Below, piece by piece: positions 25,679 through 33,180 of a stretch of 64,000 nt of DNA (the stretch's first letter is position 1; each line of letters begins with the position of its first letter). This DNA is from Methylocystis sp. ATCC 49242 (lineage in GTDB: Bacteria; Pseudomonadota; Alphaproteobacteria; Rhizobiales; Beijerinckiaceae). The stretch lies in assembly GCF_000188155.2 (NCBI RefSeq), contig NZ_KE124774.1, forward strand, positions 1,804,356 to 1,868,355, written 5' to 3'. The notes beneath the pieces were generated by a model. That model did not search any database and had not been told where the DNA came from. It saw only the letters and a program-made list of their open reading frames with translations. Position numbers and translations under genes: made by a program.

Positions 25679-27541
25679 TCAGCCGCCCCTCTTCCCGCTC
25701 TCGCCCGCGAGCGCCGGCTTGTCGGTCATGCCGTTCCTGATCTTGTCGAGGATCTTCGGCAGCTCTTCCGGGTCCGGACCCAGGTCGCGCGCATGGTTCC
25801 ACTGGAACTGCGCCTCGAGCTTGCGGCCGACGCGCCAGTAGGCGTCGCCGAGGTGGTCGTTGATGACCGGGTCGGAGGGCTTCAGATCGATGGCCTTTTC
25901 CAGCTCGCGCACGGCGTCGTCGTAGCGGCCGAGGCGGTAATAGGCCCAGCCCAGACTGTCGACGACATAGCCGTCGCGCTGGCGCAGATCGACCGCGCGG
26001 CGCAGCATCCTGAAGGCGTCGTCCAGATTGACGCCCTGATCCACCCAGCTGTAGCCGAGATAATTCAGCACCAGCGGCTGGTCGGGATTGAGCTCCAGCG
26101 CCTTCTTGAGATCCGCCTCCGCCTGCGGCCAGTTCTTGCGGCGCTCATTGGCGATGCCGCGATAGTAATAGATGAGCCACTGGCTCTTCTCGCTCTTGGG
26201 CTGCAGGGCGAGCACGCGGGAATAGGTGTCGGCGGCCTCGTTGAACATCTTGCGCGAGCGCTGCAGATTGCCGAGCGCCGTCAGCGCCTCCTGATTTTTC
26301 GGATTCGCCGCGACGACAGCCGCGAGATGCTCTGTCGCCTCCTTGGACTTGCCGAGCGTCTCCAGCAGCAAGGCCGCCTGCACGTCGGCGTTGACGCGCA
26401 GCGGACTGTCCTCCGGCACGCTGTCATAGAGGTCGATCGCCGTCTCTTCCTGCTTCATGCGCTCATAGACGTCGCCGAGCGTGACGATCGCGAGCGCATT
26501 CTCGGGCGCGAGGTAAAGGGACAGGCGCAGATAGATGAGCGAGGCGAGTTCGTCGCCCTGACGGCCGCCGACGGCGCCGAGGCCATAAAGCGCCTCGGCT
26601 GCGCCCTCCTCCGCAGTGCGCACGAAGGGCGGCAGGGCCTTGCCGCCTTCCAGCGCGGCGATGCCCGCCATCACGATCGGATGATTGGGCGCGACCTCGT
26701 CGAAGCCCTTGTATATTTTCAGCGCCTCGTCGAGCTGTCCGCGCGTCGCGAGGAAGCGGGCGTAGGCGTCGACGAGACGCAGCGTGTTCTTCTCGGCGGA
26801 ATAGGCGTTCCTGAAGCGCTTTTCCGCCTCCGCCTTGTCGCCGCCGAGGTCGGCGATCAGTCCGGCGTGATAGTCGCGGAAGACGATGAAGGCTTCGTCG
26901 TTCAGCGTGTCGAGCGTCTGGAGCGCCTTGCGCGTGTCCTTGGCGCCCGCATAGCTCCAGGCGACAAGCAGCGTCGAGGTGATGTCGCGCCGGCGGTCGC
27001 CGCCGCCCTTGCCGAGCTCCGCGCGCGCCGCGGCATATTTGCGATTCTTGAGAAGATCGACGCCACGCGCGAGATGGGCGAGGCTGTTGCCGCGGTCATG
27101 CGCCACGACCCGGCCCGCGAGCGGGATCGCCTCCGGCATATTGCCATTGGCGAGCGCGGCGACGAAGGCGCGGTCGACGAGATCCTCGTTGCGGGGATCG
27201 TCGCGCAGCGCCTCGCGGAAGAAGGTGGAGGCGGCGAAAGTGTCGCGCGCCGAGCCTGCGACGATGGCCGCGAGATAATTGCCGGAGAGGCTCGTGCCGA
27301 CCTCGAAGGGGCGCGCCACCGAAAGACTCTCGCGCGCTGCGAGGCTCGAATCGACGGGAAGCGCGAGCCAGACGGCCGTTGCGGCGACGAGTGTTGCGCT
27401 GGCGCGCGCGGCAAAGCTTTTGCTGCGAGCGGTCAGTCGAGCGGAGTTTGGCACAGGCGCGTTCCTATTGAGGTCGCGGGTCTCGCTGGCGCTCGATCGC
27501 GCAGCGACCCGGCTGGATGGACGAAGTGGCCGTTGGTCCAT
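25679..27541 (-). CDS. Tetratricopeptide-repeat protein
   Basis: This 620-residue protein has a basic N-terminus, a hydrophobic signal/anchor ([16 protein letters not shown]) and then at least ten TPR units across residues 90-600. Examples are [36 protein letters not shown] and [15 protein letters not shown]. Close relatives are common in Hyphomicrobiales as secreted or periplasmic TPR proteins of unknown function, probably scaffolds for envelope complexes. The ATG at 27541 (MDQRPL) is preferred to a more upstream start that would lie in the sucC terminator. It stands alone downstream of that terminator. Confidence 0.85.
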
Positions 27542-27589
27542 CGTCGGGCGTAAAGATGGCCCTTTTGCGCCGGGCCCGCAAGCAAAACT

Positions 27590-27625
27590 GCGTCTAAAAA
27601 ACAAAGGGGGAGGTCGCCCTCCCCC
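27590..27625 (-). terminator. Rho-independent terminator of sucC
   Basis: Read on the minus strand, a GGGGGAGG/CCTCCCCC stem (27606-27613 with 27618-27625) is followed by a TTTGTTTTTT run (27592-27601). It lies 11 bases after the sucC stop. This is a textbook intrinsic terminator and shows that the sucC transcript ends here, without sucD. Confidence 0.9.
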
Positions 27626-27636
27626 GCTTCGGCAAA

Positions 27637-28833
<1,197 letters not shown>

Positions 28834-29010
28834 GCCGAAGTCTCTCCTCGCAATAAACGGCGCGCCGCGCGGGCTTGGAGCCTAATGGCCACGGACGGGG
28901 CGGATTCGTCAAGCGGGCGAGGCGTCGCGGGGCGGATCACGCATCGCCCGCTGTGAACACCCTTTAGGGGACGGTGGAGGGATCGCCATTTTCGACCCAG
29001 GCCGGCAAGC

Positions 29011-29039
29011 TTGACAATTACTGAATAAATTCCTATATC
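29011..29039 (+). promoter_or_regulatory. Near-consensus sigma70 promoter with no gene downstream
   Basis: TTGACA (29011-29016) is a perfect -35 box. A 17-bp AT-rich spacer separates it from TATATC (29034-29039). The promoter points away from sucC into at least 500 bp with no coding sequence on the plus strand, so it may drive a small RNA. Confidence 0.6.
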
Positions 29040-29436
29040 CTCGTCGCCCCCTCCAACCGCAAGGGGCGCTCCCGATGGGTCCGGGGCGCTGGCGGGGGTG
29101 CGGATCCGGCGGGGGCGGCGACCCTCGTTCCCGTCGGCGGCGCGTCGCCGGCTTTGGGCTTCTCCTTCGTGCGGAGCGCCTGTGAGGCTTTCGGCCTCAT
29201 GGGCGAAAAATGAGCCCGGCCGCAATATCCGAGGTTGGCGCGGGAGCCGATTACCCGAACGGGGAAAAGCAACCTGGACCCGGAGGCGGCGAGAGAGACG
29301 CGATCCGCGTCCGGGACGATTTCGCGGCCCGATGACTTTTTTGCGCCACGGCCGGACGGGCCAGCGGCGCCCCGGACGCCTTGCCCCGCGCCGAAACCGG
29401 CGGCGGGAAATTTCGCGCGGGCGATAATCCGCAGCC

Positions 29437-29532
29437 TTCATCCTGAGGAGCAGCCGCAGGCTGCGTCTCGAAGGATGAGCCATTTGGCGCGACTCGCGCG
29501 GCTCTCCACCCTTCGAGCCTCCTCGGCGAGAG
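29437..29532. repeat. Palindromic intergenic repeat element
   Basis: The segment contains TCATCCTGAGGAGC, a short inverted core (AGCCGCAGGCT) and CTCGAAGGATGA, followed by a related CCACCCTTCGAG unit. It resembles the dispersed palindromic elements with CATCCTGAGGAG and TCGAAGGATG arms common between genes in Bradyrhizobiaceae and Methylocystaceae. Only one copy is seen in this window. Confidence 0.55.
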
Positions 29533-29551
29533 GCCGCGGATCAATCCGCCC

Positions 29552-30058
29552 TCAAGGCTGCGACGGCTCCTCCGCCACATGCGCCTCGAGAAAATCCAGG
29601 GCCTCCTTCGGCGCGCCAGCGAGCGGCAGGGCGACGAAATGATTCGTCGCGAGAATGAGCAGCCATACGCCCTCGAACCGCCAGATCGCCCTGATCGCCG
29701 GCCATTCGAGCAGCGAGGCGGGACCGGGACCGTCGATGACGACGCCGTCGTCGCGCAGACGGGCCATCGCCCAGCGCCCGCGCATGGCCTCGATCTTCCC
29801 GCGCATCATGCGCCAGTGCATGCGCCAGCCGGAGAAAACGAAGATGGCGAGAATGGCCACGGCGGCGATGAAAAGCTCGACCGCGAGCTCATGGTCACCC
29901 GAGAAATACAGCCCGGCGCAGGCGACGAGAATCGCCGCGAGCGGCAGGAAGGTCTTGAGAGGCGCCTCGCGAAACAGCGCGCGGGTCACGAATCCCGTGA
30001 CCGCCGACCGCATCAGCTTCTCGTCGTAACGCAACGGGAAAACATAGCGGTCGGTCAT
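29552..30058 (-). CDS. Two-helix membrane protein downstream of mdh (YcxB-like)
   Basis: This 168-residue protein has an N-terminal soluble stretch, two adjacent transmembrane helices (TFLPLAAILVACAGLYF and LFIAAVAILAIFVFSG) and a C-terminal soluble domain with RLRDDGVVIDGPG and FEGVWLLILATNHFVALPL. The plan and the hydrophobic FVALPL end resemble YcxB-like proteins of unknown function. It starts 13 bases after mdh ends and so is probably co-transcribed with it. A role in central metabolism is not implied. Confidence 0.75.
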   Translation of the reverse strand: MTDRYVFPLRYDEKLMRSAVTGFVTRALFREAPLKTFLPLAAILVACAGLYFSGDHELAVELFIAAVAILAIFVFSGWRMHWRMMRGKIEAMRGRWAMARLRDDGVVIDGPGPASLLEWPAIRAIWRFEGVWLLILATNHFVALPLAGAPKEALDFLEAHVAEEPSQP

Positions 30059-30071
30059 GGGGAAAAACCCG

Positions 30072-31037
<966 letters not shown>

Positions 31038-31306
31038 TTATCTCATGCTGGACTTCAGATGAAACTGCTACCCCGGTTTCGCGCCGGATGGAAGACGCAA
31101 GGGCGGCTTTTTCACGCCGCGAATCCCCAATCGGAACAGAGCGGCTCCATCGCCCAAAAGCCCGGCGCCTCGCAGCGGGCGCCTGAATCCTGCGCAACAC
31201 TCCCGCCGGAACGGGGCGCGCAAATGTCGCAGCGGATTGCGCGGGCGGGCCAGGCTTCCTACCTCACCGGACAGTCGCCGTTCCGGCGATCGGAAAGGGT
31301 GAAAAC

Positions 31307-31870
31307 ATGGGCAAGCAATTTGCGCAGGGCCGTTTCGGCGCCCTCGTCGCTGCGGCGGCCGCGGTTTTTCTTGCGGGCGGCGCGATGGCGGCGGAGGACG
31401 CCGACGAAGCGGAACTGCTGAAATACTTTGAGAAAGTTGACGTCTGGCATTTCCCGGTCGACACGACCGTTCGCTACAACAACCAGGACGCCGTGGTCAC
31501 GCGCGAGCTGGTCTTTCAGCCCCCGGCGAGCGGCGAGCTTTGCTACGTCCGTTTCGACGTCGTAAAGGGCGAGGGCGATTACGGCTTCGGCCTCAAGCCC
31601 GCGACCGCCGCCGGCCCCCGCAAGAACACCGAATGGGGAATCAACGTCCTCAAACGAGGGACGGTTCTGAACCAGTGGTATTCGGCGCTGCGGATGAACG
31701 TCATCTATTTTTTCGTCGAGGGTCCGAAGGCCGAAGGCGCGAAGGAAATCTGCGCCCGCAAGCAGGCGGCCCCCACGGCGCAGGCCGGAAACGCCTATCA
31801 GGGCCCCTGGTCCGACCTCGTGACCAAGGCCAAGGCGATCCACGGCTGGCCGGCGACGGGCTCCAGGTGA
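31307..31870 (+). CDS. Secreted hypothetical protein
   Basis: This 187-residue protein has a Sec signal peptide (FGALVAAAAAVFLAGGAMAA). The mature part has two cysteines (ELCYVRFD and EICARK) and a beta-rich pattern (TTVRYNNQDAVVTRELVFQP). I do not recognise a domain. GGAAAGG precedes the ATG. It is divergent from mdh; the 271 bp between them hold both promoters, not resolved. tRNA-Lys follows. Confidence 0.72.
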   Translation: MGKQFAQGRFGALVAAAAAVFLAGGAMAAEDADEAELLKYFEKVDVWHFPVDTTVRYNNQDAVVTRELVFQPPASGELCYVRFDVVKGEGDYGFGLKPATAAGPRKNTEWGINVLKRGTVLNQWYSALRMNVIYFFVEGPKAEGAKEICARKQAAPTAQAGNAYQGPWSDLVTKAKAIHGWPATGSR

Positions 31871-31967
31871 CAGAAATCTGACGGCGAGCGAATTACGGCG
31901 CTGGACATGGCGAGGCGCATTTGTTATTCGCTCGCTCGTTCCGGGGGCGCTGCGTCGCCCTACGGAC

Positions 31968-32043
<76 letters not shown>

Positions 32044-32174
32044 ATAAAATCAACGGGTTAAGTTGGTTTTTGGCCGCTGGAAACTCCCCGGAAAAAAGTT
32101 GTAAACAGGCGTAAACTTTTCGAGCCCTCAACCGGGCGCGGAAGGGTGCCAGTCTCCAGGCCGAGGACGCTCCA

Positions 32175-32477
32175 ATGAAGTTCGCAGTCGCCTTGGCGCT
32201 GCTTTTCTCACTCACGAGCGTTTCCCTCCCCGACGCGGCGGATGCTCGGCCGGGGCGAACTCAGTCCTCCGCTGAACGCCGGAAGCCCAAAGTCAAAGCG
32301 GGCGATATCAGCGGGGTAGAGACGATCAAGCCTCAGGAGCCCCCCTCAAAAGATCGCGAAAGCGGGCGCGGCTGGAACGGCGCTTACGTCGGCGTCAACG
32401 CGGGGGCGGGGTTTGGAACGACGGCTGGGACAAACGTCGTGGTTCCAATTGGAACCGCCAGTCAGGCGGGCAAATAA
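32175..32477 (+). CDS. Small secreted protein, copy 1 (first-strand Omp25-like end)
   Basis: This 100-residue protein has a signal peptide (FAVALALLFSLTSVSLP), a basic Ser/Lys-rich region, and the segment VETIKPQEPPSKDRESG. It ends with WNGAYVGVNAGAGFGTTAG and a short tail. The last segment resembles the first beta strand of Omp25/RopB-type barrels (WTGFYVGVNAG), but no barrel follows. It sits 131 bp behind tRNA-Lys. A paralogue with the same truncation point is at 35707-36024, which argues for a genuine short protein rather than a decayed porin. Confidence 0.7.
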   Translation: MKFAVALALLFSLTSVSLPDAADARPGRTQSSAERRKPKVKAGDISGVETIKPQEPPSKDRESGRGWNGAYVGVNAGAGFGTTAGTNVVVPIGTASQAGK

Positions 32478-32647
32478 GAGAGCAGAGAGCGGGGCCATTT
32501 AGTTGCCGCCCCTCCCCCATTTCATTTGTCCGACGTCGCAGTAGCCGGAGACGCTTGGGACGGATGTTGCGGGGTCCGTGAGGGCCGACTGCGCCCAAGT
32601 TCAATTTTGAACCGGCGTCGACCTCGGCCCATCTCTTTCTCGCAAAA

Positions 32648-33180
32648 CTATCTCGCCTTTGGATGTGGCGCGCCGAGGTATGGGAACTCGTTCAGGATAT
32701 CTGTGTGCGGCTTAAGCCCATCGGGCGGGATATCGCCCTTGGACAGGAAAGCGAGACGGTGATTGATGACATCGTCGGCAAAAACACGGCCGTTGGGGTA
32801 TCCCGCGGGCTGCGAAGGATCGTAGCTTAGCATGTCGGGCAGGATGGCATGAGCATCGATGGCATCGATCGCTTCGTCGCGGGTGTAGTTGCCAGTATGT
32901 CCCATCAGGTGGATAAATTGCTCAAGCCAGCGCTGACGATCGTTGACCGGTTCGCTGGCGTTATATTCCTCCTGGGTCTCATCAGTGTTGAAGAAGCTGC
33001 TGACCGACGGGTGACCGGCGCGATCGACATGAACGAGTTCACCGTCCCGCCGCACGCTGCATCGTCCCCAAATGCGGATCGCAGGATTGCCGCCAAGTTC
33101 ACTTGTCGGCAATTCGATCACAGTCGAGAGCACATTGGCTTCCGTGTTCGAATCCTTGCCAGTCCAGGGAGACTTGCCGC
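32648..33180 (-). pseudogene. DUF4331 protein, C-terminal fragment
   Basis: This is the last ~177 residues of a DUF4331-type secreted protein: STVIELPTSELGGNP, IRIWGRCSVRR, a characteristic DRAGHPSVSSFFNT, AGYPNGRVFADDVINHRLAF and a terminal PHTDILNEFPYLG. The frame runs open (upstream of the first possible start, GTG at 33133) straight into the left end of the IS element at 33181-33184. The N-terminal two thirds and the signal peptide are missing and are not found on the far side of the IS, so the gene is broken. Confidence 0.85.

Follow-up and report, generated by a model that had tools for sequence, protein, structure and literature searches.

A Methylosinus-1 RNA gene and its conserved promoter, divergent from sucC in Methylocystis sp. 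ATCC 49242

The stretch of Methylocystis sp. ATCC 49242 DNA analysed here (the window, 64,000 nucleotides) carries sucC, a gene for a YcxB-like small protein and mdh on its reverse strand (Table 1). Between sucC and the ycxB gene lies a promoter on the forward strand, which a sequence-only reading had proposed as the source of a structured, GC-rich RNA running away from sucC. The covariance search suggested there as a check was run with cmscan on the whole window, and Rfam family RF03108, the Methylosinus-1 RNA, was matched over its full length (145.3 bits against a gathering cut-off of 145.1, E 4.7e-32); this match, together with the covariation described below, supports the proposal. Nothing besides RF03108 was found in Rfam for 28840-29560 at E <= 1. 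SRP RNA, RNase P RNA and tmRNA, to which the earlier reading had seen no likeness by eye, are thus rejected at that threshold in this interval as well, and ARAGORN found no tmRNA in the window. An identity as 6S RNA was also rejected, because RF00013 has no match at E <= 1 in the same interval; a 6S RNA of this genome is found elsewhere (C6:73087-73241, 70.3 bits). An apparent resemblance between one loop and 23S rRNA, seen on inspection, is unsupported, rRNA having no match at E <= 1.

The score, the full-length helices and the host group (Methylosinus and near relatives) all agree with membership in the Methylosinus-1 family. The locus at 29011-29420 is therefore almost certainly a gene of this family with a housekeeping-type promoter and a 3' hairpin end, that is, a member of a known RNA family that is now better delimited. 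The genome carries a second copy (C6:142019-142208, reverse strand), which scores just under the cut-off at 139.6 bits, is 74.7% identical to the window copy and adjoins a gene that we take, from reading it by eye, to be purA. RF03108 reportedly originates from a 2017 survey by Weinberg and colleagues, and to our knowledge the family was previously known only as a short computational motif; in the literature searched, no paper was found under the term Methylosinus-1. A map of transcription start sites and 3' ends in Methylosinus sporium 5 assigns non-coding units to six Rfam families, of which four are named in its account of transcription units, cobalamin, glycine, EcpR1 and alpha-r45 (PMC12403871).

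Table 1. Features of the RNA locus and of the neighbouring genes (positions in the window)
Feature	Position	Strand	Basis or remark
sucC, divergent neighbour	27637..28833	-	Pfam ATP-grasp_2 and Ligase_CoA
-35 box TTGACA	29011..29016	+	Read directly; strict promoter pattern in 54 of 71 copies
Near-palindromic spacer TGAATAAATTCC, in relatives GGAATAAATTCC / TGAAAATATTCC	29022..29033	+	Conserved; possible operator
-10 box TATATC	29034..29039	+	Read directly; relatives compared
RNA gene body	29041..29420	+	blastn homology; R1 29041-29186; R3 29284-29420
Loop 1 of loop-loop pairing, GGGUC	29077..29081	+	Comparison of copies
Rfam RF03108 match	29096..29316	+	Model 1-214 of 214, 145.3 bits
Long-range closing helix, 5' strand GCGGAUC	29100..29106	+	Rfam structure line; compensatory changes in relatives
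Loop 2 of loop-loop pairing, GACCC	29120..29124	+	Comparison of copies
Long-range closing helix, 3' strand GAUCCGC	29302..29308	+	Rfam structure line; compensatory changes in relatives
3' hairpin closed by UCCGGGACG / CGCCCCGGA	29310..29376	+	Outside Rfam model; R2, R3
Terminal hairpin CCCCGCGCCG-AAAC-CGGCGGCGGG, no U-run	29384..29407	+	Homology ends here; candidate terminator
YcxB-like small protein gene	29552..30058	-	Gene following the RNA
mdh	30072..31034	-	Pfam Ldh_1_N / Ldh_1_C

Compared with the 214-position Rfam model, the gene is about 50 nt longer at the 5' side, not counting the promoter, and about 105 nt longer at the 3' side. Homology to relatives in blastn reaches positions 1415-1827 of the window locus (L001), which correspond to 29010-29422 of the window. 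Three models cover the extended gene. R1, for the 5' domain, was built from 24 sequences with the window copy among them and scores 89.7 bits at its place in Table 1 (next best 20.6), while R3, for the 3' part, was built from 23 relatives with neither copy of the window genome included and scores 76.3 bits (21.6 for the second-best place in the window). R2, for the 3' domain, was correctly placed in 56 of the 61 loci given to it, the remaining five running off a contig end; its training set includes the window copy, and six of the 61 loci overlap that set. From these comparisons we infer an RNA of about 365 nt that would start at about 29043-29046 and end at about 29408-29420. The earlier description of 500 bp without a gene, up to 29551, holds for coding sequences on the forward strand; the conserved unit itself stops near 29408-29420. 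Just 3' of the RNA, at 29438-29475, there is a separate dispersed palindromic repeat of 38 bp, TCCTTCGAGACGC...GCTCCTCAGGATGA; an exact match to the pattern is present in each of two further Methylocystis loci (L011, L043), and weaker blastn matches to it occur in Methylocystis and Methylosinus loci.

The RNA contains three ORFs of at least 20 aa on the forward strand (36, 41 and 109 aa), and none of them is kept in any of 24 homologues. A protein-coding reading was rejected on this ground, which bears out the earlier remark that no coding sequence follows the promoter on its strand; the next gene is on the reverse strand.

The evidence for a folded structure is comparative. Energy-based folding of the window sequence gives no excess over its own shuffles (z -0.25), so that it is the comparison of copies alone that argues for the structure. 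In a MAFFT alignment of 24 sequences, tested with a structure of 35 pairs that includes the loop-loop contact, 89.6% of the cells are standard against 84.7% after shuffling, covariation is 0.272 against 0.180, and changes on both sides occur in 14 of the 35 pairs against 6.8. None of 500 shuffles reached the observed standard cells, both-side changes or covariation, and five of 500 reached the number of further pair types. When the partner is slid by one column, the standard cells fall to 47-52% and covariation to 0.12-0.15, and both-side changes are still seen in 9-12 pairs. The loop-loop helix alone has 78.5% standard cells in this alignment, in which loop 1 is set one column off in several rows. 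In an alignment of 77 copies fitted to the R1 model, both-side changes occur in 24 of 29 pairs and in 294 cells, where shuffling gives 114.5. The two loops could form five or more contiguous Watson-Crick pairs in 67 of these 77 copies, compared with 14% of shuffled loops, and the other ten are limited to three or four pairs; compensated variants include GGGUAG/CUACCC and CGGAUC/GAUCCG. The 3' hairpin has one A-C mismatch in the window copy. The helices covary, and this points to conservation of the structure.

The promoter hexamers and their 17-bp spacer are present as the sequence-only reading gave them. It had called this promoter the best sigma70-like one in the window, and of the three sites that match at least 10 of the 12 hexamer positions no other has a perfect -35 box; the hexamers by themselves are not beyond chance, since 20 random sequences matched in dinucleotide composition give about 0.95 such sites per strand, or about 1.9 in all. 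A standard scan of 26000-33000 does not list the promoter because it requires T as the last -10 base. The significance of the site lies in its conservation: promoter and downstream sequence are conserved together in relatives, and the promoter heads most of the short-type copies examined. The lack of conservation that the sequence-only reading had named as refuting its proposal is thus not what the comparison shows. We surveyed 71 copies, 59 located by R1 and 12 short ones from Methylocystis, with a strict pattern (TTG[AC], 17-bp spacer, [AT]TTCC and a TAT-like end). The 17 copies outside this pattern comprise eight with an 18-bp spacer (by eye), three degenerate ones, four of the long type without the promoter and two cut at contig ends. 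Among the 54 that fit, conservation of TTG[AC] and [AT]TTCC is imposed by the pattern, while the intervening GA and the spacing are not; this GA, which opens the 12-mer, is invariant in all 54, and other positions between the pattern-fixed bases vary (50-94%). Upstream of the C that precedes the -35 box the DNA is mostly unconserved.

Most short copies have in common the near-palindromic 12-mer between -35 and -10. A search of the window genome for GGAATAAATTCCTAT with at most one mismatch returned the promoters of the two RNA genes and nothing else, so a broader regulon of this motif in that genome was rejected. Across named genomes the promoter pattern picked out 13 stretches, of which seven contain the RNA. 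The remaining six, two in MAGs, two on Salaquimonas contigs and two others, are unrelated and have no match to R1 or RF03108. In the two MAGs (L046, L051) a TTGACA-GGAATAAATTCC-TATA promoter stands before short frames, in one of them three times within about 2 kb. Our impression from the reading frames is that they encode a Phd-type antitoxin. It is possible that the RNA and these frames share an operator, or that strong promoters simply coincide.

Relatives of the RNA were found only in Methylocystis and Methylosinus among the genomes sampled. Within the genus, RF03108 matches 23 of 39 genomes, of which one exceeds the cut-off; it further matches 3 of 99 genomes of the family and, with the best five candidates per genome scored, 1 of 397 genomes of the order, which is the window genome itself. 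In the family, R1 matches 18 of 248 genomes, which belong to 2 of 43 genera (best 12 candidates per genome scored), and in the class again only the window genome (1 of 385, best eight candidates scored). With strict filters and the best candidates per genome scored, the RNA is likely absent outside these two genera. A deeper search of 24 picked genomes, 17 with and seven without an earlier match, matched the same 17. Nine Methylosinus genomes have 10, 5, 7, 7, 2, 7, 4, 7 and 7 copies, and eight Methylocystis genomes 2, 8, 8, 6, 2, 3, 1 and 1. The highest count, ten, comes from M. sporium DSM 17706 (G042), a draft with copies at contig ends in which the overlapping ones differ in sequence; near-complete genomes have up to seven or eight. 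Sixteen of the 39 genus genomes lack a match to the Rfam model, and since the seven Methylocystis genomes among them that were re-searched with R1 also yielded no copy, the RNA is not essential to the genus.

Three branches can be distinguished: a Rfam-like short branch, which includes the window copy, a short Methylosinus branch with mostly TGAAAATATTCC promoters, and a long branch of about 500 nt with an extra domain. Rfam covers them unevenly. When 11 loci were scanned, two were over the cut-off, the sister copy of the window genome scored 139.6 bits, three long ones scored 37-40 bits, and no RF03108 match at E <= 0.05 was obtained for one further long locus and four loci of the Methylosinus branch. 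Members of the long branch carry a conserved TTATCCCCAC-like element at the place of the -35 box (L022, L023, L024, L026, L028, L033, L035, L067, L074, L076, L083, L146, L147 and L148), and the long-type copies of two alignments, outside the 71-copy promoter count, have the TATCCCCAC element in place of the promoter. The TTATCCCCAC-like element is one base off a DnaA box; it may be a site for another sigma factor or for an activator. In viral contigs the promoter pattern occurs in 17, and none of the stretches fetched contains the RNA at E <= 1, on which ground a phage-borne element was rejected; the 3' hairpin pattern had no match in viral contigs, and a viral scan with Mdh found no relative.

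Comparison of 26 genus genomes at sucC revealed the RNA in 16 and no match in ten. The RNA and sucC are on one contig in 12 (G000, G101, G104, G105, G106, G107, G108, G116, G118, G120, G121 and G133), each time with the nearest RNA 0.2 to 42 kb upstream of sucC and directed away from that gene; in G108 the RNA near sucC is a partial match. In four genomes (G111, G113, G123, G127) the two are on separate contigs, and in G130 and G017 the order mdh-ycxB-sucC is kept with no RNA in the interval. The window copy probably sits at the old Methylocystis locus, and its link to sucC is loose. Several side observations were made in this neighbourhood. In G105 a transposase gene (L020 1681-2802; Pfam DUF772, DDE_Tnp_1) splits the RNA gene into a promoter half and a 3' half. 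In G017 a frame of 69 aa lies between ycxB and sucC, where the window genome has the RNA (L151 984-1193), and by eye it resembles the coding sequence of a cold-shock protein. At G000:C6:3222931-3224088 lies the gene of another ATP-grasp CoA ligase, with about 50% identity to SucC, and 23 of the 26 genus genomes have such a ligase, which we take to be probably the malate-CoA ligase of the serine cycle.

The copies within a genome have partly evolved together. Where clusters are defined by at least 250 bp of shared flank on one or both sides, 59 copies fall into 14 clusters (41 copies) and 18 singletons. In the tree, five copies of G559 group together (100/98), as do four of G583 (98/96), despite four G559/G583 pairs being orthologous by their flanks. 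The RNAs of these same-position pairs are 84.8-86.4% identical, compared with 90.4-94.0% between genome-mates in G559 and 89.8-98.1% in G583 when L138 is set aside, an outlier at 85.2-87.8% to its genome-mates. Higher identity within these two genomes than across them bears the mark of gene conversion, as judged from the sequences. Of 37 copies with neighbours of both kinds, 22 have their closest relative at the same position in another genome and 15 have it within their own genome, which indicates that conversion is partial; general concerted evolution was rejected, a genome-mate being closest in those 15 only. The two copies of the window genome are not homogenised, as their identity shows.

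Several explanations of the locus have to be weighed. Three promoter-like sites in the window against about 1.9 expected, and a folding energy no better than shuffles, would suit a promoter that arose by chance in GC-rich DNA and yields no functional transcript, but the promoter and some 380 bases downstream are conserved in two genera with compensatory changes, and this explanation is scarcely credible. A cis role of the RNA at sucC or mdh, for instance as a leader, an attenuator or an antisense RNA, is very improbable. The -35 box lies only 178 bp from the divergent sucC start, and the nearest copy is upstream of sucC in each of the 12 Methylocystis genomes with both on one contig; the RNA is nevertheless on the opposite strand and points away at a distance of anything between 0.2 and 42 kb, and there are copies near unrelated genes (purA by eye, DNA polymerase A, a PAS/SpoIIE protein). 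Were the stretch from the promoter to the last hairpin a selfish or mobile non-coding element, this would account for the homology between copies, which begins and stops at these points, for the many sites and a copy number of 0-10, and for the mdh-ycxB-sucC interval that is empty of the RNA in G130 and G017. We consider such an element unlikely, given that 41 of the 59 copies fall into flank-sharing clusters with their place kept between species, that the sole transposase seen interrupts the G105 RNA and is not part of the RNA unit, and that the 3' hairpin pattern has no match in viral contigs.

The main rival is a base-pairing regulatory sRNA, whose unpaired stretches would pair with mRNAs in trans and whose many copies would set the dose. 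Rfam types RF03108 as an sRNA, and promoter-driven intergenic RNA genes of alphaproteobacteria are often base-pairing sRNAs. A hairpin containing CUCC, which in our view resembles the anti-Shine-Dalgarno tail of 16S rRNA, is shared by all 24 sequences aligned for the 5' domain, and the position-specific sequence kept in 22 of 37 copies would fit separate targets for each copy. Typical pairing sRNAs, on the other hand, are smaller and less folded than this RNA, whose length is about 365-520 nt and whose pairing includes long-range and loop-loop contacts, and the CUCC lies within a conserved stem that covaries. We regard a pairing sRNA as possible, if the less probable reading. Because of its size, its long-range contacts, its own promoters and its copy number, we favour, with middling confidence, a trans-acting stable structural RNA that is made from its own promoter and is most likely bound by protein.

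This structural RNA might work as follows. RNA polymerase would start at about 29043-29046 and make a transcript of about 365 nt that ends after the hairpin at 29384-29407. The transcript would fold compactly into two 5' hairpins with mutually pairing loops, followed by a multi-helix junction, with the long-range helix linking the 5' domain to the 3' part and two 3' hairpins after it. As a stable structural RNA it would then act in trans, most likely with a bound protein. Dose may matter, as there are many copies in several relatives and some are kept alike within a genome, and the 12-mer between -35 and -10 may be the site of a regulator that sets the RNA level. More speculatively, and we hold this to be rather doubtful, type II methanotrophs may carry a multi-gene structural RNA of 365-520 nt as the core of a new, dose-regulated ribonucleoprotein tied to their lifestyle, with up to ten partly homogenised copies, near-consensus promoters and a common operator in most short copies, and only one branch well covered by Rfam.

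Methylosinus-1 RNA occurs in the methane-eating Methylocystis and Methylosinus, in some genomes in many copies, and in our analysis it becomes a defined gene with likely ends, a promoter, a testable tertiary contact, a copy number and a mode of evolution. Both genera are standard type II methanotrophs, so that deletion, overexpression and pull-down are feasible, and even if the function is modest the extended models would allow the missed branches to be annotated. The window RNA resembles the Methylosinus-1 RNA of Rfam in its outer helix, hairpins and organism group and is over the gathering score; unlike the model, the gene extends further in both directions, a conserved promoter precedes it, and its relatives are multi-copy. 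6S RNA is likewise a structured RNA gene with its own promoter, but RF00013 does not match here. GOLLD, ROOL, OLE and raiA, large structured RNAs of unclear role, are similar in being elaborately folded with long-range contacts. The window locus differs from them in matching RF03108 alone (E <= 1), and Methylosinus-1 RNA is found in only two genera among the genomes sampled, with several copies in many relatives.
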